NCBI GenBank assembly: GCA_947259105.1
Contig: CAMYKU010000003.1
Coordinates: 1 to 64,000 of the forward strand
DNA from: an uncultured Alphaproteobacteria bacterium
GTDB lineage: Bacteria; Pseudomonadota; Alphaproteobacteria; UBA8366; JADFVY01
Direction of reading: 5' to 3'
DNA: 64,000 nucleotides
Position numbers and translations under genes: made by a program
The notes under the pieces: model-generated
The model's database searches: none
Seen by the model: the letters and a program-made list of their open reading frames with translations, nothing else
What the model was told of the DNA's origin: nothing
Part shown: positions 46,678-62,218 of the stretch, in pieces
Numbering within the stretch: position 1 is the stretch's first letter
Layout of the letters: each line of letters starts with the position of its first letter

Positions 46678-47910
46678 TCAGGCGCCCTTCCACCAGCGGC
46701 GCGGTTCGACATTCTCAGCCAGCGTATCCTTCGGAATCTCGCGGGCGATGTCGAATATCTCCTTGTAGGTGTCGATGCCGCCGGCCCAACCGTTAAGCCG
46801 CTCGCGCCACTGTTCCCATTCCGCCGGATGGAACTCGGGCGAGCACATCTCCTCGGCTTTCCTGATCTCGGCGTCGGACAGTTCGGCGACGCGGACATCG
46901 TTCTGGGCGAAGATGGTATTCGGCTTTTGCGGGTTCGAGGCGCCGACGGTGTTGACCAGCGCGGCCTCGTTGGCCGCCTGCACGTGGACCTGGGAGAGAT
47001 AGGCGGATTCCATCACCGCGTCCTGCAGCTGTCCGCCCAGCTTGTCGAACACGCTGGCGTTCATCGCCGTGTGTTCGGTGCCGCAGAAGAACTTGAGGTC
47101 CACGCATTGCGAGACCACCGGCGACATGTTGGCGTAGGCCACCGCGGACATCCAGGTTTCGGCGCCGTCGATCAGGCCCTGTTTCAGGCCGTCCAGAGTC
47201 TCTTCCCAGGCGATCGGCACGGGGTTCAGCTTCATCAGGTTCATGGCGATGCGGCCGAGCTGCGTGCCGGTCACGCGGTTCTTGGTGCCGGCCAGCTGAT
47301 CGACGCTGGTGACCGTGGGCTTGTCCTTCCATTTCAGGCCAAGCTGGATGCCGCGCAGTTCCGCATGGGTGAACAGGAACTGTATGCCATGCCGCTTGCG
47401 CATCGGCTCACGCAGGATCTGCTCGCTCTTCGGGTGGTACATGAAATAGTACTGCGCCGCCCTGCCGGGGAACATGTAGGCATAGTCCAGCACGTTCAGA
47501 TAGGGCGCGCCGCCGGCCGAATTCTGGGTCGAAGCGGCGTAGATATCCACGATACCCTGCTGCGTCTTCTTCACGCAGTTGAGCTGGCCGCAGATCTGGT
47601 TGTTGCCGATGAATTCGATCCGGATCGCGCCGTCGGTACGTTCCTCCAGGTCGTTCACGAACTGCAGGCAACCGGCACGCTCGATCAGCAGATTGCGCTC
47701 GTTGAAGCCCGCCGCGCCGAACTTCAGGGTGAATTTCGGCTCCTTCGAAAGGCGTTTCGTATAGGTGGAATTTGCCGCCTCCGCGAGGCGGGGCAACGTA
47801 ACGGCGCCGGCCAGGCCGCCTGCCGCCAACAGTGTCGAACTCCAGCCATAGGTGGCCGCGAGCCGGAACAGGTCGCGGCGTGAGACCGCGCTGAGTGTTT
47901 CCTTGAGCAT
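46678..47910 (-). CDS. TRAP transporter substrate-binding protein (DctP-like)
   Basis: SRRDLFRLAATYGWSSTLLAAGGLAG Tat-like leader; LNPVPIAWEETLDGLKQGLIDGAETWMSA. Confidence 0.9.
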   Translation of the reverse strand: MLKETLSAVSRRDLFRLAATYGWSSTLLAAGGLAGAVTLPRLAEAANSTYTKRLSKEPKFTLKFGAAGFNERNLLIERAGCLQFVNDLEERTDGAIRIEFIGNNQICGQLNCVKKTQQGIVDIYAASTQNSAGGAPYLNVLDYAYMFPGRAAQYYFMYHPKSEQILREPMRKRHGIQFLFTHAELRGIQLGLKWKDKPTVTSVDQLAGTKNRVTGTQLGRIAMNLMKLNPVPIAWEETLDGLKQGLIDGAETWMSAVAYANMSPVVSQCVDLKFFCGTEHTAMNASVFDKLGGQLQDAVMESAYLSQVHVQAANEAALVNTVGASNPQKPNTIFAQNDVRVAELSDAEIRKAEEMCSPEFHPAEWEQWRERLNGWAGGIDTYKEIFDIAREIPKDTLAENVEPRRWWKGA

Positions 47911-48004
47911 GATGTCCTCTCCCTTGGACGTTAGCCTCAACCGATTGCGGGGGACCGCTATACCGGCCCTTGTTTTTTGGATTACGATAGTCTCGATAAA
48001 TGAG

Positions 48005-48018
48005 ATGATCAGTATCAT
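48005..48018. promoter_or_regulatory. Inverted repeat ATGAT-cagt-ATCAT in the divergent TRAP/GMC promoter region
   Basis: Perfect 5-bp arms within an AT-rich intergenic segment. Confidence 0.35.
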
Positions 48019-48143
48019 TATTGCATCAAGTTTTTGTCTGTGCAAGTATCAATGGTTTCGGGGGCAAAACGTGAAATTTAATTACCCGGATTCCCGAAGA
48101 TTCGAGACAGCAGGGAGGATGCCCGCGACGGGCAAGGCAATCG

Positions 48144-51164: not shown

Positions 51165-51614
51165 ATGGCGGATTTCGAGTACGAACCGGGAGAGACCGAG
51201 ACGCTCCGGCATGCGCCGGTATGGGTCGACCTATGCGTCGTCGCGGCGATCCTGCTGATCGAGTTCGCGGTCGTCGCCACGGCCTCGGGCGAGATGACGG
51301 CGGAGCCGATGCGCTACGAGCAGACGACGCTCGCCGTTGTCATCGTCACCGCCCTGTTCGCCGGGGCCTGCCTGCAGTTCGTGATCCTGGTCATGCCGCC
51401 GCTGGTCGAGGTCACCGACCGCCGGATCGTGCTGCGCCGGCGGCTCGGCTGGGACGACCCCGAGACGTTGCGGCTCGACGAAGTCGAGGACATCCGCCAG
51501 CAGGGCTGGCGGCTGGTCGTCAGCGGCGGCGGAACGACCCTCGGGTTCTTCTGCCCGCCGGCCTTCGCGCGGCGCATCCGTGCCGCCATCGACCGGGCGA
51601 AGATGGCAGCGTGA
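51165..51614 (+). CDS. LEPGE/TDRR-module membrane protein 1 (bacterial PH-like)
   Basis: YEPGETETLRHAP ... TM ... VEVTDRRIVLRRRLGWDDPETLRLDEVEDIRQQG. Confidence 0.7.
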   Translation: MADFEYEPGETETLRHAPVWVDLCVVAAILLIEFAVVATASGEMTAEPMRYEQTTLAVVIVTALFAGACLQFVILVMPPLVEVTDRRIVLRRRLGWDDPETLRLDEVEDIRQQGWRLVVSGGGTTLGFFCPPAFARRIRAAIDRAKMAA

Positions 51615-51950
51615 CGGGCGTACACCGCGTCCCGATAGACAGCGCGATAGCTGGTTTTGCAGACACCGTTAACTATTCCCGTTAATCCCGCGCAAACCTC
51701 GATCTGTCATGCTGCCCCCGGCTGTAACCGAAGGGGGACGGGCCATGCCGGGCATTGGCGATATTCTGGAGCCGGGGGAGCGGGTCGTGTTGCGCGTACC
51801 CGTCTTGCCCCTCTGGCAGCCCGCCTTGATGACGTTCACTGGCTTGATCCTCGCATTGCCGGCTGCTTCACGTCTGGCGGCCGATTCCGGGGATTTTGGT
51901 TTCGACATTGCTCACGCCGCTGCAGGCGGCTTCATGCTGGTCGCCATTCC
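51540..51950 (+). repeat. Direct repeat copy A (3' end of module gene 1, intergenic, 5' end of module gene 2)
   Basis: Aligns by eye to 53585-53996 at an offset of ~2046 bp; first 90 nt of the MPGIGDILEPGE... ORF differ at 2 positions. Confidence 0.85.
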
Positions 51951-52242
51951 GTTTTCGATAGTCCCGGTCTTTTTCCTGGCCGCCCTTGCCGCGAAGACCC
52001 TCTTCGGGCTGGAATGGCTGCGGCGACATCTGTCCGTCGTGCTGGACCGGGACCGTTGGTCGGGCCGCACCACCGCGCTGCGGAGCAGCGGCCGGCTGGC
52101 CCGGTTGCTCCCCTGTTACTTCAAAACCTGCGCGCGCTGGCTAAGCGTTGCGCCCCTGTTGGAGCCCCAACCCGACCTCCGCGCCGGCGCAACGCCAGAG
52201 ATGGCTGTCCGATCCCTGAAACTGGCGGAGGGCGCGGAATGA
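51745..52242 (+). CDS. Chimeric LEPGE-module membrane protein 2 (unrelated C-terminal half)
   Basis: MPGIGDILEPGERVVLRVPVLPLWQPALMT shared with 53791 ORF; no TDRRLL half, instead ...LFGLEWLRRHLSVVLDRDRWSGRTTALRSSG. Confidence 0.6.
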   Translation: MPGIGDILEPGERVVLRVPVLPLWQPALMTFTGLILALPAASRLAADSGDFGFDIAHAAAGGFMLVAIPFSIVPVFFLAALAAKTLFGLEWLRRHLSVVLDRDRWSGRTTALRSSGRLARLLPCYFKTCARWLSVAPLLEPQPDLRAGATPEMAVRSLKLAEGAE

Positions 52243-53210
52243 GCAAGCTCGACAAACTGATCCCGCCCAGCGAGACCGTGCTGTGGCGCTGGCCCGCGCC
52301 GCGGAAGGTTTCGGACACGCTCGGCTGGCTCGCCTTCTATGCGGTTGGCGCCGTCGCGGGCTGGGTGGTCTGGGTGGATTTTTTCGCCGACGATCTCTGG
52401 TCCGGCGCGGCCTTGTCCCTGGCCACGCCCGCGGCAATCGGCGCGGCCGGCAAGGCGTTCGGCGTTTTGCTCTGGGAGCCGCACGCCATCGCCGTGACCG
52501 GCCAGCGCATCGCCATAGTGGCCGGGCGCGTCCTGCGCCGCACGGAGACGGTGTACCGCGACGCCATCCACACGGCCTCCCTTTACGAGGACAACACGCT
52601 GGTCCTGCATAGCCGGTATGCGGAAGTGCTGCGCCTGGCCGACCTGGATAAGGAAAAGGCGATCGAATTTATCGACTTTCTGGACGTGCCGACCGCCGTG
52701 TGGCGCAAGCGCAAGCCGGGCGAGCCGGTCCGCGCGATCCGCCGGAAGACGCTGGCGGCCACGCTGCTTCTCATGGCGGGCCTTGCGGGCGGGGCCGTCG
52801 CCCTGGCCGGCCCCTGGAATATCGCGGTTACGGCTGTGTCGGGCTTCCAGTACCTGTCCGGCCTGGCCACACGCCCCGGCGCCGTTGCGCTGACGCTTGC
52901 CGGCAGCGGGGCCGCGCTGTTCGCGCTGTGGGTGGCGCAGATGATGCTGCACGACCTTGCGGCCGTGGTGGTCGCGCGCTACAGGGCCTCGCCGGAGGTG
53001 CTGCGCGAGCTAATCTGCAGCGCCGGCGACCCGCTCTGGCTCGGCTGGCCCCGCGACCCGAAGAAGGCCGCAATAGTCTCGGACACCGTCGAATTTCTCA
53101 ACGATTGGGCGAAAATCCTCGGCGCCCGTCCCGTCGAGCCGATCCCGCTCGAGCCCGAATACCGGGAGTCCAGAACCGAAGCCGCGAAGAACGCGGAGGT
53201 CGCGGAATGA
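52239..53210 (+). CDS. Divergent LEPGE-like membrane protein 3 (323 aa)
   Basis: LIPPSETVLWRWPAPRKVSDTLGWLAFYAVG...IAVTGQRIAIVAGRVLRRTETVYRDAIHTASLYEDNTLVLH; ATGA overlap with upstream ORF. Confidence 0.7.
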   Translation: MSKLDKLIPPSETVLWRWPAPRKVSDTLGWLAFYAVGAVAGWVVWVDFFADDLWSGAALSLATPAAIGAAGKAFGVLLWEPHAIAVTGQRIAIVAGRVLRRTETVYRDAIHTASLYEDNTLVLHSRYAEVLRLADLDKEKAIEFIDFLDVPTAVWRKRKPGEPVRAIRRKTLAATLLLMAGLAGGAVALAGPWNIAVTAVSGFQYLSGLATRPGAVALTLAGSGAALFALWVAQMMLHDLAAVVVARYRASPEVLRELICSAGDPLWLGWPRDPKKAAIVSDTVEFLNDWAKILGARPVEPIPLEPEYRESRTEAAKNAEVAE

Positions 53211-53497
53211 GCAAGAGCATTGCCAATGTTGCCGTAGCCGTTCTGGCGCTGGCCGGTTGCGGGACGCTGGCCAATACCTTCGAAGAGGAGCCGGGGAACA
53301 GGATCTATGTCGGATTGCGGGCTGATCTTGGCGCCATCGGCCATGGCGGCCTCCTCGACCTGCCGTTCTACTTCGTGCTCGATACGATCCTGCTGCCCTA
53401 CACGATCCCGAAGACCATCGCGAACCGCTCGGCGGTTGAAAGTGTTGGGAAGCCGGAAGACATGAAGCCCGCGGACGGTATCGGGGAGCAGGAATAG
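53207..53497 (+). CDS. YceK/YidQ-like lipoprotein
   Basis: LALAGCGTLANTFEEEPGNRIYVGLRADLGAIGHGGLLDLPFYFVLDTILLPYTIPKTI; ATGA overlap with upstream ORF. Confidence 0.82.
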   Translation: MSKSIANVAVAVLALAGCGTLANTFEEEPGNRIYVGLRADLGAIGHGGLLDLPFYFVLDTILLPYTIPKTIANRSAVESVGKPEDMKPADGIGEQE

Positions 53498-53503
53498 ACA
53501 CCC

Positions 53504-53659
53504 GTGCCGTGGCTTGGCGGGCATCTTGAAGCCGGGGCGCGGGTTCGGTGGCGCTATACCCGGATGAACCGCTGGCTGGTGCCCCTGGGGTTTTCCTGCC
53601 CGCCGGCCTTCGCGCCGCGCATCCGCGCCGCCATCGACCGGGCGAAAGCGATGCTGTAA
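53504..53659 (+). pseudogene. Decayed/internally deleted LEPGE-module remnant
   Basis: Frame reads VPWLGGHLEAGARVRWRYTRMNRWLVPLGFSCPPAFAPRIRAAIDRAKAML*: N-terminal module motif joined to the C-terminal motif of ORF 51165 (FFCPPAFARRIRAAIDRAK). Confidence 0.7.
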
Positions 53660-53996
53660 CAGCAACGAATCCCGAAGTCTGAGGCCGCCCGATAGCGGGC
53701 GTTCGCAGCCCCCGTTGACCATCCCCGTTAATCCCGCGCAAACCTTGACCTGCGATGCTGTTCCCGGCTGCAACCGACGGGGGGAGGGCCATGCCGGGCA
53801 TTGGCGATATTCTGGAGCCGGGGGAGCGGGTCGTGTTGCGCGTACCCGTCTTGCCCCTCTGGCAGCCCGCGTTGATGACAATCACCGGGTTGATCCTCGC
53901 ACTGCCCGCTGCTTCACGTCTGGCAGCCGGTTCGGGGGATTTCGTTGTCGACATTGCTCTCGCCGCTGCAGGCGTTTTCATGCTTGTTGTCGCGGT
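53585..53996 (+). repeat. Direct repeat copy B
   Basis: See copy A at 51540-51950. Confidence 0.85.
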
Positions 53997-54237
53997 ACCC
54001 ATTTACCGCACATCCAGAATCTGCATGTTGCTGGTGACCGACCGGCGCCTGCTGCAGCGCCAGGGCAACGAGAAATATGAAGAGATATCCTTGGCGGCGG
54101 TCGACGCGGTCAAACCCTACCGGCTCGGCGACGGGCTGTTTGTGGCCGCCCAGGACCAGAAGATCGTCGTCCCTTGCAAGGAAAAGACCGCCGCCCGCAT
54201 CCGCGAGGCCATCGCCCGCGCCAAGGGAGCAGCGTGA
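53791..54237 (+). CDS. LEPGE/TDRR-module membrane protein 4
   Basis: MPGIGDILEPGERVVLR...MLLVTDRRLLQRQGNEKYEEISLAAVDAVKPYRLGDGLFV. Confidence 0.78.
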   Translation: MPGIGDILEPGERVVLRVPVLPLWQPALMTITGLILALPAASRLAAGSGDFVVDIALAAAGVFMLVVAVPIYRTSRICMLLVTDRRLLQRQGNEKYEEISLAAVDAVKPYRLGDGLFVAAQDQKIVVPCKEKTAARIREAIARAKGAA

Positions 54238-55157
54238 TGGCGCGGCTGACGGACATGCTGGAGCCGGGGGAAACGGTGCGGTACCGCGCCGCCATGCCGC
54301 GGGAGGCGGTGTGGATAGTGGTCCTATGGGCTATTTTGGTGGGCGGCATGGCCGCGGATAAGATGTACCGGTATCCGCTCGAAGAACCGGGCGATATCCT
54401 TTTTGTTCTGGGCGTCTTTTTTCTGCCGGCGTTTATCGTCCCGGCTGCCATCGGTCTTGCGATCATGTGGCCTCGCTTTCCGGCATGGGCGATCACCGAC
54501 CGGCGGATCATCGCCCTCGGCGGGCTGTTGCGAAACCGGCGGCAGGATATCGCGCTGGCCGAGATCGAGGAGGCGCGGTTCGCGGACCAGCAACTGATCC
54601 TCGAAGGTGGCGGCCGAACCCTGAAAATAAGGGCGGTGAGAATTCCGGCGCACGTTCTGACCCGATCGCTTGGACGGTGGTTCCCGGACACGGGTAGACC
54701 GAAACTGCGGCTCGGCCGCATCCTGGAGCCGGGAGAGGCGGTTCTGCTGCGTGACCCCGCGCTCCGGTGGGCCCTTCTGCCGGCGGCTATGGTCGCGTTC
54801 GGGGGCTATATGCTGGTGGGTGGACTCTGGTTACTCGCTACCGGGGGCGAGGTTGATTTTTTTGACATCTCCGTCGGTATGGATTTCATCCTGATCGCCG
54901 GATGGGGGATCGTCGACGTGCGCGCGCATACCTTCTGGGGGTTCATGGTGACCGACCGGCGCCTGTTGCGAGGGCTGGCGCACGATCCGGCGCTCTACGA
55001 GGAATTCCCGCTGGCGGCTGTAGAGGCGGTCCCGCCCGCCACGTTCGGCGACCGCCTGTTCGTGACGCTGCGCGGCCAGCAGGTGCAGCTTCCGGCGAAA
55101 GGCAAGGCCGCCGCCCACATCCGCGAGGCGATCGAGGCGGCAAAGGGGGCGGCGTGA
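54237..55157 (+). CDS. Two-module LEPGE/TDRR membrane protein 5
   Basis: LEPGETVRYR...AITDRRIIALGGLLRNRRQDIALAEIEEARF and LEPGEAVLLR...MVTDRRLLRGLAHDPALYEEFPLAAVEAV; TGATG overlap. Confidence 0.8.
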   Translation: MARLTDMLEPGETVRYRAAMPREAVWIVVLWAILVGGMAADKMYRYPLEEPGDILFVLGVFFLPAFIVPAAIGLAIMWPRFPAWAITDRRIIALGGLLRNRRQDIALAEIEEARFADQQLILEGGGRTLKIRAVRIPAHVLTRSLGRWFPDTGRPKLRLGRILEPGEAVLLRDPALRWALLPAAMVAFGGYMLVGGLWLLATGGEVDFFDISVGMDFILIAGWGIVDVRAHTFWGFMVTDRRLLRGLAHDPALYEEFPLAAVEAVPPATFGDRLFVTLRGQQVQLPAKGKAAAHIREAIEAAKGAA

Positions 55158-55615
55158 TGGCTTGGTTTGGGCCGAAACTGGAGCCAGGCGAGCGGGTGGT
55201 GCTGCGGCACTGGCCGGAGCGTTTCGTATACGGTCTTGGCGCCCTGATCGCCGCGATGGATGTCGGCTCGCTCTTCGCCGTTGACCGGTACGTGGCGCGC
55301 AGCGGCGCGCCGGGCGGGCAGGAGCTGATGCTCTTCGCAATTGGAGCCGTGGTCCTGAGCCTTGCGCTGCTACCGCTTATGGTCTGGTTCCTCCGACTCG
55401 CCGTGGTCACGGACCGGCGGCTCCTGGTGCGCAACGAGATGTCCTGGTCCAATTCGAGACAGATCCGTCTCCACGAGATCGAGGACGCCTATCAGGAAGA
55501 CGGACGGTTCCATATCCGCGGCGCCGGCCGGACCCTGGAATTCCCCTGTCTGCCGGGTTTGGCCCGCCCGCTCCTGAAGGCACTAAGCCGCGAGCCGGAA
55601 GTGGGGCTGCCATGA
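55157..55615 (+). CDS. LEPGE/TDRR-module membrane protein 6
   Basis: MAWFGPKLEPGERVVLRHWP...AVVTDRRLLVRNEMSWSNSRQIRLHEIEDAYQEDGRFHI; TGATG overlap. Confidence 0.8.
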   Translation: MAWFGPKLEPGERVVLRHWPERFVYGLGALIAAMDVGSLFAVDRYVARSGAPGGQELMLFAIGAVVLSLALLPLMVWFLRLAVVTDRRLLVRNEMSWSNSRQIRLHEIEDAYQEDGRFHIRGAGRTLEFPCLPGLARPLLKALSREPEVGLP

Positions 55616-56541
55616 ACGGTCGGTTCAGGCGCGTGCTGGAGCCGGGGGAGCGGATTCTGGTGCGCTCGACGGACGGCAAGACGACCTGGTATCTGGCCGG
55701 GGCGTTCCTGCTGATCCTCGCCGCGGGGTGGCTCCGCGGCGTCTGGGGGGTCGATTTCCTCGGGTTCGAGTTCTGGTATGCAACCCTGTTCCCGCTGACC
55801 TTCGCACCGCCGATCGTCGGCCTGGCCTGGTTGTGGACCCGGTGGAAATGGGTGGTCACCGACCGCAGGGTGCTGAAGGGTTACGGTCTGTTCTCGTCCG
55901 AGATCGCCGAAATGCGGCACGAGACTGTCGAGGACGTCCGGCTGGACGACAGGACGTTGACTGTCCATGGCCGCGACTATCGGTGGGACTTCCCGATTTC
56001 CCGCAACTTCTGCCGCGCGGAGGTCCTGTACGACCTGTTCGGCGACCGCTTCGGCGATGCTGGCCTGCCCGCGAAACCGCTCGTCGAGATGCTCGAGCCC
56101 GGCGAGACCGTCCTGCATCGCGCCTCCCCCCTCGTCACCGATCTCCTGCCATGGGCGGTCCTGCTGATTGGGCCGATCCTGTTGTTCGCCGTGACCGTAT
56201 TGACCGTATGGCCGGAGACGCTGGGGAGTTGGTATTCCATCCCGGCTGTTGCATTGGGCCCGTACGCGTTGCTGCTGGCGGATGTGGTCGCCGCCTGGCG
56301 CCGGCGCGGCTGGCAGACGGTGCTGACCGACCGGCGGTTGTTGCGGCGGCGCCCCGAGGCGCCGTCGCGTTGCGATCCCGTTCCCATCGACGCGGTCACC
56401 GAGGCCTACTGGGATTCCAAGGGATGGGAACTGGTCCTCGTCAGCCCCGCTCGCCGCGACACTGTTTTTTGCCTGCCCTGGAGCGCCCGCCGCATCCTCG
56501 ATGCCCTCGAACGCAACGACCGCGGCGAGGCGTTGGCGTGA
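55612..56541 (+). CDS. Two-module LEPGE/TDRR membrane protein 7
   Basis: LEPGERILVRS...VVTDRRVLKGYGLFSSEIAEMRHETVEDVRLDD and LEPGETVLHRA...VLTDRRLLRRRPEAPSRCDPVPIDAVTEAYWD; ATGA overlap. Confidence 0.8.
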   Translation: MNGRFRRVLEPGERILVRSTDGKTTWYLAGAFLLILAAGWLRGVWGVDFLGFEFWYATLFPLTFAPPIVGLAWLWTRWKWVVTDRRVLKGYGLFSSEIAEMRHETVEDVRLDDRTLTVHGRDYRWDFPISRNFCRAEVLYDLFGDRFGDAGLPAKPLVEMLEPGETVLHRASPLVTDLLPWAVLLIGPILLFAVTVLTVWPETLGSWYSIPAVALGPYALLLADVVAAWRRRGWQTVLTDRRLLRRRPEAPSRCDPVPIDAVTEAYWDSKGWELVLVSPARRDTVFCLPWSARRILDALERNDRGEALA

Positions 56542-57023
56542 TGGCACGGCTTGACACCATGTTGGAGCCAGGCGAGCGGGTGGTGCTGCGTTCGCCGCTG
56601 CGGGCGCGCATGGACTGGCGGGGGAATGCCCGTTTGCTGGCCGTCCCAGTCGTCGTCTTTGCGGCGACCTACGCGACCGGCGTCGGCGATATGAAAAGTT
56701 GGGACTACTGGGGTTATATGGGCATGCTGGCGGCGGTCCCCATTCTGATCACTGTCCTGGGGGCGATTGCAGTCTTTGTCAGGAACCGTTACTGGCGCGT
56801 TGTCGTGACTGACCGGCGGGTCCTGGCCATGACGAATCGCCTCGGGCGAAAGCACATCGAAATGGATCGGAAGGCAATCCACACCGTAACGCGCGACACC
56901 GTCAGTCAGAGCCTCGTGTTCCAATTCGCCGGCCGGCAGGTGGCAGTGCCGTTTCCGCATCACGGGGAGGAAAACGAGGTCCTCGCCGCACTGGGCCGCG
57001 AACCGGCGGAGGCGCTGGCGTGA
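56541..57023 (+). CDS. LEPGE/TDRR-module membrane protein 8
   Basis: MARLDTMLEPGERVVLRSP...VVVTDRRVLAMTNRLGRKHIEMDRKAIHTVTRD; TGATG overlap. Confidence 0.8.
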   Translation: MARLDTMLEPGERVVLRSPLRARMDWRGNARLLAVPVVVFAATYATGVGDMKSWDYWGYMGMLAAVPILITVLGAIAVFVRNRYWRVVVTDRRVLAMTNRLGRKHIEMDRKAIHTVTRDTVSQSLVFQFAGRQVAVPFPHHGEENEVLAALGREPAEALA

Positions 57024-57469
57024 GCTGGTTCGGGCCGAAGCTGGAACCGGGGGAGCGGGTGGTCATCCGGCGTCCGGACCGCAGGGATGGCACGTTCTGG
57101 CAGGGTCTGATGGCGGTACTGCTTGTAGTCGAACTGGTTGTGTTCGTCGCGATGCACGAGGCCTTTGGGATCGGCCGGCGGGGAACAGGCGTCTTGCTGT
57201 TCGCCGTTTTTGCCCTAGTGGCGTTTGCGGCGACGCGCTGGCGGCTTATCGTTACGGACAGGCGGCTACTACACCGCCGCGGGCTGTTCCTGTCCCGAAT
57301 AGAGGAAATCCGATTGGACGAGATCGAGGACGTGCGCAGCGAGATGGGGGCGTTCGCCGAGCGCATCGTGATCCGCGCCAGATGCCGCGAGACGGTCGTC
57401 GCGATGGTCGGCGTCGACCCGGCACCCGTCGTCGCGGCGATTCGAGGTGCAGCGGAGGCTACGTCATGA
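57020..57469 (+). CDS. LEPGE/TDRR-module membrane protein 9
   Basis: GTG start overlapping upstream TGA; (M)SWFGPKLEPGERVVIRRP...LIVTDRRLLHRRGLFLSRIEEIRLDEIEDVRSE. Confidence 0.8.
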   Translation: MSWFGPKLEPGERVVIRRPDRRDGTFWQGLMAVLLVVELVVFVAMHEAFGIGRRGTGVLLFAVFALVAFAATRWRLIVTDRRLLHRRGLFLSRIEEIRLDEIEDVRSEMGAFAERIVIRARCRETVVAMVGVDPAPVVAAIRGAAEATS

Positions 57470-57514: not shown

Positions 57515-58576
57515 TCAACCCCGCGGCGGCGCTGTCGAGCCGCGCACGACGAGGCGCACCTCGACCCTTGTGCGGTGCCGGGCCGGCTTTCCCTCGATGC
57601 GGTTGACGAGGTAGTCGGCGGCGAGCGCGCCCATCTCGCCCGACGGCACGTGCATGGTGGTGAGGCCCGGCGGGATGTGGCTCGACAGCTCGGTGTCGTC
57701 GAAGCCGACGACCGACAGGTCGCCCGGCACGTCGAGGCCCATCGCTGCGGCCTCGAAGATTGCGCCGAAGGCGAGCAGGTCGTTGCCGCAGATCACCGCC
57801 GTGGGGCGCTCCTCCGGCGGTCCCGCCATCACCGCGCGCAGGCCGTCGCGACCCTCGCGCACGCCATAGGGCTCTTCGATCAGGCGGCCGTCGTCCAGCC
57901 GCAGGCCGCGCCGCGCCAACGCCTCGCGCACGCCGACGGCGCGCGCCGCCGCCCGGTCGTTGCCCTCGGCGATGCCGGCGATCATGGCGAACCGCGCGTG
58001 GCCCAGATCCAGCAGGTAGTCGGTCAGCCGCACCGCCGCCTCGACATTGTCGAAGCCGATGCAGGGATGCGCCGCGTCGCCCTCGTCGACCCAGGTGTTG
58101 ACATGCGGCACGCCGCGGGTCTCCAGCAGCACATAGAGCGACGGGTGGTGTTCCGTGCCCATCAGCATCAGCCCCTCGATGCCGCGCTCCAGCAGGTTCG
58201 TCGCCTGGCGCAGCTCCTTGTCCACCCGGTAGTCGGAGCCGGCGACCACCAGCGCGTAGCCGCGCTCGTTGAGCCGCGATTCGAGCCTCTGCACGCCGGT
58301 GGCGAAGATCGGGTTGTCGAGGGTCGGCACCACCGCGCCGATGGTGCGCGAGCGGCGCGACGCCAGGGCCCTTGCCGCCGCGTCCGGGACATAGCCCAGC
58401 TTGACGGCTGCGGCCCGGACCCTCTCGCGCATGTCGGCGCCGACCTTGTCGGGCGTATTCAGGGCCCGGCTCGCGGTCGCCGGCGACACGCCGGCCAGCG
58501 CCGCCACGTCGGACAGCTTGACCGATTGCGCCGATTCTTGAAATCGCTTTCTCTTCGTTCCCCGCTCCATGGTCAT
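57515..58576 (-). CDS. LacI family transcriptional regulator
   Basis: VKLSDVAALAGVSPATASRALNTPDKVGADMRERVRAAAVKLGYVPDAAARALASRRSRTIG. Confidence 0.95.
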   Translation of the reverse strand: MTMERGTKRKRFQESAQSVKLSDVAALAGVSPATASRALNTPDKVGADMRERVRAAAVKLGYVPDAAARALASRRSRTIGAVVPTLDNPIFATGVQRLESRLNERGYALVVAGSDYRVDKELRQATNLLERGIEGLMLMGTEHHPSLYVLLETRGVPHVNTWVDEGDAAHPCIGFDNVEAAVRLTDYLLDLGHARFAMIAGIAEGNDRAAARAVGVREALARRGLRLDDGRLIEEPYGVREGRDGLRAVMAGPPEERPTAVICGNDLLAFGAIFEAAAMGLDVPGDLSVVGFDDTELSSHIPPGLTTMHVPSGEMGALAADYLVNRIEGKPARHRTRVEVRLVVRGSTAPPRG

Positions 58577-59075: not shown

Positions 59076-59108
59076 CGACCAATGAAAGCCACCAGGGAGA
59101 GACCTATC

Positions 59109-60278
59109 ATGACCGACCGAAAAGACGACGACACCCGGCTGATCCGGCCAATGCAGCAAGAGGACCGGCGCGGCTTCATGCGCACGGTCGCAAAGTTCGG
59201 CTTCACCACGGCGGTGGTCGCGGCCGGCGCCGGAACGCTGGGCAAGCCCGCCGCGGCGCAGACCAGGGCCGAGGAGCAGGAGCGCCAGAAAACCGCAACG
59301 CACACGATGACGATCGGCACCGCGTACAAGATCGGCACGACGCGATCCTATCCGATCATGCAGCTGAACCTGAAGGAGAACATCCAGAATCTCACCAACG
59401 GCCAGGTCTATGTGAAGCTGGCCCCGGGCGGCTCGCTGGGCGTCGGCACCAAGCTGGTCGAGAAGGTCCAGGCCAACACCATCCAGGCGGCGCAGCATTC
59501 GCTCTCGAACTTCGCGCCCTTCGCGCCCGCGGTCGACCTGATCAACCTGCCCTACTGGTGCGGCGAGAACCAGCGCTTCGTGAACCTGGTGACATCCGGG
59601 GTGTGGGAGCAGGAGGTCAACAGCCGGGTCAAGGCCAAGGGCTTCAAGCCGCTGTTCTATTTCTGCATCGACCCGCGCACCGCGGCCAAGCGGCGCGGCC
59701 TCAGCGACGAGCCGTTCCGCACGCCGGCCGATCTGCAGGGCATCAAGTTCCGCGTGCCGGGCTCGAAGATCCTGCAGCAGTTCTACCGCCTGCTCGGCGC
59801 CAACCCGACGCCGGTGGCCTGGGGCGAAACCCCCTCGGCGATCAAGCAGGGCGTGGCGGACGCACTGGATCCGGCGGTCGAGGCGCTCTACGCGTTCGGT
59901 TTCAAGGATATCCTGTCGTGGGTCACCTTCAACCGCTCGGTGCCCGACAGCCAGGTCTATTCCTGTAATCTGGAATGGTTCAACGGCCTGCCCAAGGACG
60001 TGCGGGAGGGCATCGACTTCGCCAGCGAAGTCACCTTCCAGCAGAACCTGGCGCAGGTTCCCGCATCCCGCGCTTTCGCGATGGCCGAAATGGCCGCGGC
60101 CGGCGTCAAGTTCCATTCGCTGACCAAGGACGAGTACGCCGCCTGGGTCGAGACCGCGGGCCAGCAGCGCAAGGAATGGGACGATTGGAAAAAGGAACTC
60201 GGCGGCTCGATCGCGACCTTCGACAAGCTGTACGAGGCCGCCAACACGCAGAGCAAGTATATCGTCCACGACGTGTGA
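59109..60278 (+). CDS. TRAP transporter substrate-binding protein (DctP-like)
   Basis: Tat-like leader RRGFMRTVAKFGFTTAVVAAGAGTLGKPAAA; NPTPVAWGETPSAIKQGVADALDPAVEALYAFGFKD. Confidence 0.92.
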   Translation: MTDRKDDDTRLIRPMQQEDRRGFMRTVAKFGFTTAVVAAGAGTLGKPAAAQTRAEEQERQKTATHTMTIGTAYKIGTTRSYPIMQLNLKENIQNLTNGQVYVKLAPGGSLGVGTKLVEKVQANTIQAAQHSLSNFAPFAPAVDLINLPYWCGENQRFVNLVTSGVWEQEVNSRVKAKGFKPLFYFCIDPRTAAKRRGLSDEPFRTPADLQGIKFRVPGSKILQQFYRLLGANPTPVAWGETPSAIKQGVADALDPAVEALYAFGFKDILSWVTFNRSVPDSQVYSCNLEWFNGLPKDVREGIDFASEVTFQQNLAQVPASRAFAMAEMAAAGVKFHSLTKDEYAAWVETAGQQRKEWDDWKKELGGSIATFDKLYEAANTQSKYIVHDV

Positions 60279-60289
60279 TGTTGACGTTT

Positions 60290-60317
60290 CGGGGGCGGCG
60301 CAAGCGCGTCGCCCCCG
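60290..60317 (+). terminator. Intercistronic hairpin (attenuator/mRNA stabiliser-like) between dctP and dctQ
   Basis: CGGGGGCGgcgcaagcgcgtCGCCCCCG followed by tcttctgc. Confidence 0.55.
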
Positions 60318-60339
60318 TCTTCTGCAAAATGACCGGAAG

Positions 60340-60879
60340 ATGGACCGGAAGGTGGATGGCGTAATGCTCGATCTGTTGCGAAAGCTCGACCGGAACGGGG
60401 AGCGGGTGCTCCTGCTGGTCCTGTATGCCTTTATCGTCCTGGCCATTTTCATCGAGGTGGTGCGGCGGTTCGTGCTGCTCTATTCCTCGGTCTGGGGCGA
60501 GGAGACGGCGCGCTACGCGTTCATCTATCTGGTGTGGATCGGCGCCGCGGTGGCGGTCAGGGAGCGCGCCCATATCCGCATCGACGTGCTGTTGCATTAC
60601 CTGCCGCCGCGCGGCGTCGCGATCTTCTACCTGATCGGCGACGTGCTGACCGCGGTGCTCGCCTGTTTCGCCATCTACTGGTCGATGGATCCGGTGCTGG
60701 TGTCCTGGAAGTTCGGCAACGTGACCGACGGGCTGCGCATCGTGCGCGTCTGGTTCCTCGCCGCCGTGCCGCTCGGCTTTACCCTGGTGATGATCCGCCT
60801 CGTGCAGTCGATCGTCCGCGACATTGCGGATCTGCGGGCCGGCCGGCCGCCCTATACGGGCGAGAAGCTGTTCGATTAG
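60340..60879 (+). CDS. TRAP transporter small permease (DctQ-like)
   Basis: LYSSVWGEETARYAFIYLVWIGAAVAVRERAHIRIDVLLHYLP; likely start 60340 or 60364. Confidence 0.92.
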   Translation: MDRKVDGVMLDLLRKLDRNGERVLLLVLYAFIVLAIFIEVVRRFVLLYSSVWGEETARYAFIYLVWIGAAVAVRERAHIRIDVLLHYLPPRGVAIFYLIGDVLTAVLACFAIYWSMDPVLVSWKFGNVTDGLRIVRVWFLAAVPLGFTLVMIRLVQSIVRDIADLRAGRPPYTGEKLFD

Positions 60880-60892
60880 GAGCGCCGGGGCC

Positions 60893-62218
60893 ATGCACAA
60901 CCTTTACGGAATCCCCGAAGCCTCCACCGAGCTGGGCTGGGCGATCGGCCTGCCGCTGCTGCTCATGGTGCTGCTGTTCGCCATGGCGGTGCCGGTCTGG
61001 GTTTCTCTTGGCATCTGCGCGATCGTCCTGCTGGTCTCGACCGAGGTGCTGCCGCTGACCCTGTTCGGCGAGGCGCTGTTCTCGGGCATCGACGCCTTCG
61101 CCCTGATCGCCATCCCGCTGTTCATCCTGACCGGCGACGTGCTGGTGCGCTCCGGCCTGTCCAACAAGCTGCTGGACGTGGCGGAAGCGACGATGGGGAG
61201 TCTCCGCACCGGGCTCGGCACCTCCACCGTGCTCGGCTGCGGCTTCTTCGCCTGTATCTCGGGCTCAGACGCGGCGGGCGCCGCCGCCGTGGGACGCATC
61301 ACCGTCAAGCGCCTGACCGACAGCGGCTACCCGCTGCCTTATGCCTGCGCACTGGTCGCCTCGGGCGCCTGCACCGGCATTCTGATCCCGCCCTCGATTG
61401 CCTATATCATCATCGGCCTGGTGCTCGGCATTTCCGCCTCGACCCTGTTCCTGGCCGCGGCGGTGCCCGGGGTCATGATCATGGTTTCGATCATGATCAC
61501 CAATGTCATCATCAACCGGCGCAGGGGATACGAGCACAGCCGCGCCAGCTTCTCGTTCGCCCGCTGGGGCAGGGCGATGTGGGACGGCAAGTTCGCCCTG
61601 ATGATTCCGTTCATCATCCTCGGCGGCATCTATTCCGGCATCTTCACGCCCACCGAAGCGGCCGCCGTCGCCGTCGTCACCACGATCGCCATCGGCATGC
61701 TGCAGGGCACCCTGACACTGGCCGACTTCCCGAAGATGCTGGAAAGTTCGGCCAAGGTGAACGGTGTGATCGTGCCGATCATCGCCTTCGCGCTGCCGCT
61801 CGCGCAGGTGCTGGCCGCGCTTGAGGTGCCGCAGACCTTCGTCCAGGGTATCACCACGCTGACCGACAATCCGATCCTTGTCACCCTGATGATGCTGGGC
61901 ATCTTCATTGCGGCCGGGTGCGTCATGGAGACCACGCCGAACATCGTGATCCTGTCGCCGATCATGCTGCCGCTGGCGCAGGAGATCGGCATGAACGATA
62001 TTCAGTTCTGCATCTTCATGGTGACCTCGCTTGGCGTCGGCTTCATCACGCCGCCGCTGGGCCTCAACCTGTTCGTGCTGTCAGGGCTGACCAAGCAGTC
62101 GGTGCTCGGCATCGCGCGGCGCGCCGTGCCCTATGTGCTCTCCATGCTCATGGTGGTGCTGCTGCTCGCCTTCATTCCCGAAATCTCTTTATGGGCAATT
62201 CCGGAACACCTCCGTTAA
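60893..62218 (+). CDS. TRAP transporter large permease (DctM-like)
   Basis: IPLFILTGDVLVRSGLSNKLLDVAE; ISGSDAAGAAAVGRITVKRL; GFITPPLGLNLFVLSGLT. Confidence 0.95.
   Translation: MHNLYGIPEASTELGWAIGLPLLLMVLLFAMAVPVWVSLGICAIVLLVSTEVLPLTLFGEALFSGIDAFALIAIPLFILTGDVLVRSGLSNKLLDVAEATMGSLRTGLGTSTVLGCGFFACISGSDAAGAAAVGRITVKRLTDSGYPLPYACALVASGACTGILIPPSIAYIIIGLVLGISASTLFLAAAVPGVMIMVSIMITNVIINRRRGYEHSRASFSFARWGRAMWDGKFALMIPFIILGGIYSGIFTPTEAAAVAVVTTIAIGMLQGTLTLADFPKMLESSAKVNGVIVPIIAFALPLAQVLAALEVPQTFVQGITTLTDNPILVTLMMLGIFIAAGCVMETTPNIVILSPIMLPLAQEIGMNDIQFCIFMVTSLGVGFITPPLGLNLFVLSGLTKQSVLGIARRAVPYVLSMLMVVLLLAFIPEISLWAIPEHLR

Follow-up and report, generated by a model that had tools for sequence, protein, structure and literature searches.

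Why should a bacterium keep about eleven diverged copies of one small membrane module at a single locus, and what could such a set do? The question is raised by a 64,000-nucleotide stretch of DNA from an uncultured alphaproteobacterium (GenBank assembly GCA_947259105.1, contig CAMYKU010000003.1, positions 1 to 64,000 of the forward strand; hereafter the window). Within positions 51165-57469, nine genes carry nine complete modules, each running from an LEPGE motif through two membrane helices and a VTDRR motif to a beta-rich end, together with a half module in g2 and a divergent module in g3, and the lipoprotein gene g4 lies among them. The modules belong to the bacterial PH-domain (bPH_2/DUF304, YdbS-type) superfamily, of which they are divergent members, the homology being real, and the array is, as judged from sequence comparison, old, differentiated and often lost. 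Our favoured explanation, to which we give a probability of about 0.4, is that the genes encode the bPH2 subunits of a hetero-oligomer in the inner membrane, which takes part, together with the lipoprotein, in maintaining the envelope or in export. The features of the locus are as follows (E, E-value with the module hidden Markov model, HMM; aa, amino acids; Fe-ADH, iron-type alcohol dehydrogenase).

51165-51614, plus strand: g1, single bPH2 module of 149 aa behind the GMC and Fe-ADH genes (E 2e-29)
51666-51710, plus strand: conserved leader or promoter-region block, copy 1, upstream of g2, common to the operons of the related genomes G003, G004 and G005
51745-52242, plus strand: g2, chimeric reading frame, N-terminal half of a module and a tail of about 100 aa
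52239-53210, plus strand: g3, divergent module, second membrane pair and C-terminal extension (E 7e-8)
53207-53497, plus strand: g4, DUF1375/YceK-like lipoprotein (PF07119 score at the cut-off, lipobox LAGC)
53583-53646, plus strand: remnant of a duplicated g1 C-terminus, 92% identical to 51538-51601
53712-53756, plus strand: leader block copy 2, upstream of g5
53791-54237, plus strand: g5, one complete module (E 3e-35)
54237-55157, plus strand: g6, two complete modules (E 4e-35 and 2e-35)
55157-55615, plus strand: g7, one complete module (E 4e-38)
55612-56541, plus strand: g8, two complete modules; orthologues in G005 (64% identity) and G004 (58%)
56541-57023, plus strand: g9, one complete module (E 2e-35)
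57020-57469, plus strand: g10, one complete module (E 7e-39); orthologue b4 of G005 (54%)
57515-58576, minus strand: LacI-family regulator (Pfam), border of the array and landmark of the locus in relatives

The original prediction, made from the letters of the window, had listed seven open reading frames (ORFs) with the module, at 51165, 53791, 54237, 55157, 55612, 56541 and 57020, and had counted nine complete modules, two each in the ORFs at 54237 and 55612. All seven ORFs are present at these starts, and the nine complete modules were recovered by the module HMM (all E <= 2.2e-29), with g2 and g3 at about 1e-7. These nine matches are themselves nine of the 23 training rows of the HMM (the 9 complete window modules and 14 modules from relatives); in the all-against-all comparison the complete modules were connected by pairwise BLASTP alone, at about 22-42% identity. 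The ORFs at 51745 and 52239 had rightly been described as half and divergent versions, the former being g5-like only over about 65 codons and the latter giving an E of 7e-8, while the lipoprotein gene g4, the g1-tail remnant and the leader block had been overlooked. The short overlaps noted at the gene junctions are present (TGATG at 54237, 55157 and 56541, ATGA at 55612 and GTGA at 57020), and ATGA also occurs at 52239 and 53207, supporting an array of co-translated paralogues, in which the module counts from g5 to g10 are 1, 2, 1, 2, 1 and 1. The exception is g1, which had been listed with the array genes. Its start lies 15 nt past the Fe-ADH stop codon, and single g1 orthologues stand behind Fe-ADH in the related genomes G001 and G006; g1 therefore probably lies outside the co-translated unit.

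The resemblance to bPH2/YdbS-type membrane proteins, which had been suspected from the motifs, proved to be homology, and the family searches did not place the modules in unrelated families. The commonest Pfam match below threshold was bPH_2 (PF03703), the best window proteins scoring 21.3, 20.5 and 19.4 bits against a threshold of 22. In the genome search the g8 reading frame reached 23.3 bits, over the 22-bit threshold, and 8 of the 23 modules matched PF03703 at E <= 0.05. By hhalign, the module profile was aligned with a canonical alphaproteobacterial PH-domain profile at a probability of 98.5% (E 2.5e-15, 126 columns); control profiles, one reversed and five block-shuffled, gave at most 2.4%. 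The canonical profile was made from five proteins, four of which match PF03703, with up to 57 bits. SepX/GlpR, SfLAP and UsfY, each seen as an isolated sub-threshold match, were dropped as families of array members.

The AlphaFold model of g10 (mean predicted local distance difference test, pLDDT, 86.4) begins with a short strand and two long helices, which are followed by six strands and a helix at the C-terminus. Together with Foldseek and hydropathy, it indicates that a membrane hairpin at the N-terminus leads into a PH fold. The top Foldseek matches in the PDB were mostly PH-like domains, including the bacterial 3dcx (probability 0.93-1.00, E >= 0.004, about 80 columns), and no solved structure matched a module by sequence. 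Only three columns, E12, T79 and R82, are invariant across the 23 modules. For PHb domains (PF08000), Xu et al. (PMC2817789) describe as structurally important a buried Glu that forms bonds with a Thr and an Arg (in PHb1, Glu31 with Thr47 and Arg50), and by their conservation the three invariant residues match this Glu-Thr-Arg set. The Thr-Arg spacing is the same as in PHb1, whereas in the array modules the membrane hairpin is inserted between Glu and Thr, with a strand ahead of the hairpin in the g10 model.

The weak Pfam scores of the array modules probably come from the lack of the GRxxGYGxVxIxGxGG stretch; of the five canonical proteins compared, four have all or some of it. The loops between the helices carry 0-2 positive charges, and most positive charges are found in the N- and C-terminal parts. 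Under the positive-inside rule, such a bias toward the flanks suggests a cytoplasmic PH domain, so that the PH fold of the modules probably lies on the cytoplasmic side of the inner membrane.

The survey of synteny among relatives detected arrays of this kind, containing orthologous members, in two other genomes, G004 and G005. Among the 44 genomes of the order, arrays are found in just these two and the window's genome (G000), and in the genomes of the family the modules near the LacI/TRAP locus number 0, 1 or at least 8. G004 has eight modules on one contig, of which the position relative to LacI is not established; they are spread over four ORFs, one of these with three modules, and one module is without the membrane part and one is cut at the contig end. 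In G005, pepP lies with two modules on one contig, and a run of modules, the lipoprotein gene, two more modules and LacI are spread over two contigs, the ends of which have about 83 identical bases in common. Modules a2 (L011) and b1' (L009), each fused after a complete module, have lost just the membrane hairpin and retain the PH part. Beside LacI, G003 carries pepP, the lipoprotein gene and one module; G002 carries Fe-ADH and the lipoprotein gene with no module between; and G001 carries Fe-ADH, g1 and one opposite-strand gene, with no module beyond g1. The named records at the LacI locus are metagenome-assembled genomes; CP070634.1 (Rhodospirillales bacterium bin96) represents the same locus as G001, and another (L094) has unrelated genes beside LacI.

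In samples of the class and the phylum (395 and 399 genomes, partly overlapping, with a maximum of nine candidates scored in each genome), more than three matches were not seen in any genome outside the family, and the sole genome with three carries long g3-like proteins as a trio. With g8 alone as the query, a genome scan gave no relatives, and no relatives of the array were found in plasmid, phage and viral collections.

The lipoprotein gene g4 is linked to this locus. Its product carries a signal sequence with the lipobox LAGC, read in translation (MSKSIANVAVAVLALAGC), and scores at the PF07119 cut-off of 20.3 bits, with 20.6 bits in the genome search and 20.1 in hmmscan of the ORF; the orthologues in G003 and G005 reach 29-32 bits. 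A PF07119 score at the cut-off and a lipobox relate g4 to the DUF1375/YceK-YidQ lipoproteins, but g4 is divergent (28 bits with the NCBIfam YceK model, cut-off 123) and is located in a bPH2 locus. Counterparts of g4 were detected at the LacI locus in G002, G003 and G005. DUF1375 is present in four of the seven family genomes, each time beside the LacI locus, and in none of the 395 class-sample genomes under a stricter E-value limit that also dropped the window's own g4 and could miss weak members. YceK of E. coli plays a role in outer-membrane integrity and shows an aggravating interaction with lptD (PMC3219608).

Based on these observations, we propose that each module forms an inner-membrane hairpin bearing a PH fold that probably faces the cytoplasm, and that the sometimes fused adjacent modules give rise to two- or three-module proteins. 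The subunits would be co-translated from one or two operons beginning at the shared leader, and would probably come together as neighbours in a hetero-oligomeric membrane complex. With the DUF1375/YceK-like lipoprotein, this bPH2 complex may serve in envelope maintenance or in the export of a membrane-active compound, a role proposed from those reported for YdbS/YdbT-type proteins and YceK. The analysis itself supports the module architecture, the bPH2 relationship, the overlapping genes, the kept order of orthologues, the constraint on the sequence and the linkage to the lipoprotein gene; the membrane topology, the hetero-oligomer and the envelope role are inferred. That the array makes a large hetero-oligomeric membrane ring or pore of about eleven different bPH2 modules, with its own paralogue at each position and the YceK-like lipoprotein as its connection to the outer membrane, we consider distinctly doubtful; if true, it would represent a new envelope machine. 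The bPH2 membrane proteins are widespread and almost without assigned function. A locus of zero to about eleven modules beside the same neighbours, with ordered orthologues and a lipoprotein partner, offers a way to test both the hetero-oligomer and a link of the inner membrane to the upkeep of the outer membrane.

Several observations weigh against the proposed complex. The neighbouring genes that could be recognised are TRAP, GMC, Fe-ADH and LacI genes, with no ABC transporter, peptide or cargo gene among them. Close relatives have a single module, or none beyond g1, at the locus, indicating that the array is dispensable. The two-module AlphaFold model (predicted template modelling score, pTM, 0.48) is too uncertain for the packing of modules. 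In G002 the lipoprotein gene is present with no module directly adjoining, so the link between modules and lipoprotein may be positional.

The age of the array was judged from orthologue comparison. The order of orthologous modules is unchanged between genera wherever two or more are present. In the module tree, g8a pairs with b2 and a7 (support 100/100), g8b with b3 (100/99) and g10 with b4 (99/98), the g6a-a4 pairing has moderate support (85/95), and the deeper forks are weak. Between G000 and G005, the synonymous divergence (dS) of g8 is 0.64 versus 0.53-0.55 for LacI and dctM, that of the shorter g10 being 1.12, and the non-synonymous divergence (dN) of g8 is 0.25 versus 0.05-0.11 for dctM and LacI. 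The ratio of non-synonymous to synonymous change (pN/pS) is about 0.5, indicating fast but constrained evolution. As the dS of g8 is near that of its neighbours, descent from a common ancestor with later loss is favoured over recent transfer. Recent amplification is rejected by the order kept between genera and by a g8 dS close to or slightly above that of the neighbours; recent horizontal import is not favoured, on the same two grounds, and the GC content is flank-like and no relatives were found in the plasmid, phage and viral collections. An assembly artefact is rejected, both flanks being syntenic with G001 at 84-88% DNA identity.

These rates bear on a possible but unlikely alternative, in which the array is a diversifying store of related proteins, either receptors in the membrane or immunity factors, under pressure to vary (toxic peptides or phage being possible targets), each acting alone, with recombination between copies making chimeras such as g2. 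In favour of such a store, amino-acid change is 2-5 times faster than in the neighbours, a segmental duplication and the chimera g2 are present, and the presence among relatives is patchy. The pN/pS ratio is, however, not above 1, the order of orthologues is kept across genera, the mobile-element collections yielded no relatives, and defence-system models match nothing beyond one weak generic '2TM'. The original prediction had offered a hetero-oligomer or a diversifying family as alternatives; with the orthologue order conserved across genera, a differentiated and possibly hetero-oligomeric set fits better, and diversification at random fits less well.

Traces of rearrangement are present within the window. 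A segment of about 400 bp, 51538-51941, recurs at 53583-53987, and both the 64 bp g1-tail remnant and the second leader copy lie within this repeat. The first 65 codons or so of g2 show 91% protein identity to g5, and no homologue of its C-terminal part of about 100 aa (51940-52239) was found in the window's genome or the compared loci; from this composition, g2 is a chimera. The leader block (CCGGTAACCATYCCCGTTAAYCCCCCGTCAACCCC or a near variant), 45 nt long with three GTTAA/GTCAA-like repeats spaced about 11 nt, precedes the first operon gene in the window (twice), G003, G004 and G005. With up to three mismatches allowed, its core occurs in the window's genome at two sites, 51666-51710 and 53712-53756; a regulon box was rejected because there are just these two sites, both in the array. 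No sigma-70-type promoters were found, and no structured RNA was matched in Rfam, the leader block included.

The g1 remnant, the half module of g2 and the helix-less a2 and b1' of relatives, together with G003 with one module only and G001 with none beyond g1, could also be read as a mostly neutral expansion, in which drift fixed tandem duplicates of a bPH2 gene that share little function and are still decaying. We regard this as distinctly unlikely: nine modules have intact frames and the invariant residues, pN/pS is still well below 1 in orthologues at dS 0.6-1.1, and the leader, the order and the gene overlaps are retained.

Among known systems, the closest in layout are YdbS, with two helices and one PHb2 domain, and YdbT, with six helices and three, of Gram-positive bacteria, and DdE/DdF, which has the YdbS/YdbT layout and is required for the export of enterocin DD14 (PMC8657885). 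PH-domain proteins are repeatedly contained in leaderless-bacteriocin clusters (PMC11580447), and ydbST belongs to the sigma-W regulon (PMC3498285). The array resembles YdbS/YdbT (COG3402/COG3428, Bacillus subtilis) and DdE/DdF in having a membrane pair followed by a PH domain and in having single- and multi-module genes adjoining. In contrast, their four modules lie in two genes and are associated with ABC transporters and bacteriocins, or else with sigma-W, whereas the array has about eleven in nine genes and is tied to a YceK-like lipoprotein; no one-to-one gene correspondence is recognisable. The YdbS/YdbT arrangement of one single-module and one three-module protein per operon is not seen in the window, a three-module ORF being found only in G004.

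This likeness suggests a further alternative, a complex dedicated to the export of, or immunity to, some peptide or lipid encoded at another place. It would correspond directly, in a Gram-negative cell, to DdE/DdF and YdbS/YdbT, and the YceK-like lipoprotein would be its partner in the outer membrane. It would account for the combination of single- and multi-module proteins and for the G004 ORF, which like YdbT has three modules (six helices and three PH domains in the latter), but neither a transporter nor a precursor peptide gene was recognised nearby and the modules have partly lost the sequence features of canonical bPH_2 proteins; we rate it as quite improbable. An anti-phage system is rejected, PADLOC having given one weak generic match and nothing else.

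Two other groups of proteins were compared with the modules of the proposed complex. Single-gene alphaproteobacterial bPH_2 proteins (L082, L083, L085 and L057, for example) are homologous in the profile comparison and alike in the LxxxE start, the two helices, VTDxR and the PH fold; they are, however, single copy and keep the glycine-rich stretch that the array modules are without. Long tandem bPH trios were observed at L081:5555-8327 (G353, another alphaproteobacterial family) and at L054:3-2676 (G005, near a TRAP operon). These are also tandem bPH membrane genes, but in three copies only, each with an extra membrane pair and a C-terminal extension, like g3 (of the same long type, 31% to L054) and unlike the other modules. 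With such trios and paired bPH2 proteins existing elsewhere, the prediction of a hitherto unknown kind of system is unsupported. Its statement that no operon with this many tandem copies is known agrees with the literature searched, in which none was found, most subscription papers being outside the search. Provisionally, the array is lineage-restricted and of a known protein kind, and so many ordered copies in one place are apparently undescribed.

The GC content of the array is similar to that of its flanks. G001 belongs to the same genus, and in place of the array (L048:8404-9509) it has a single minus-strand gene, by eye GrdB-type reductase subunit-like. TRAP genes are located on both sides of the array, a DctP solute-binding gene at 46678-48045 on the left and a complete transporter set at 59082-62218 on the right.

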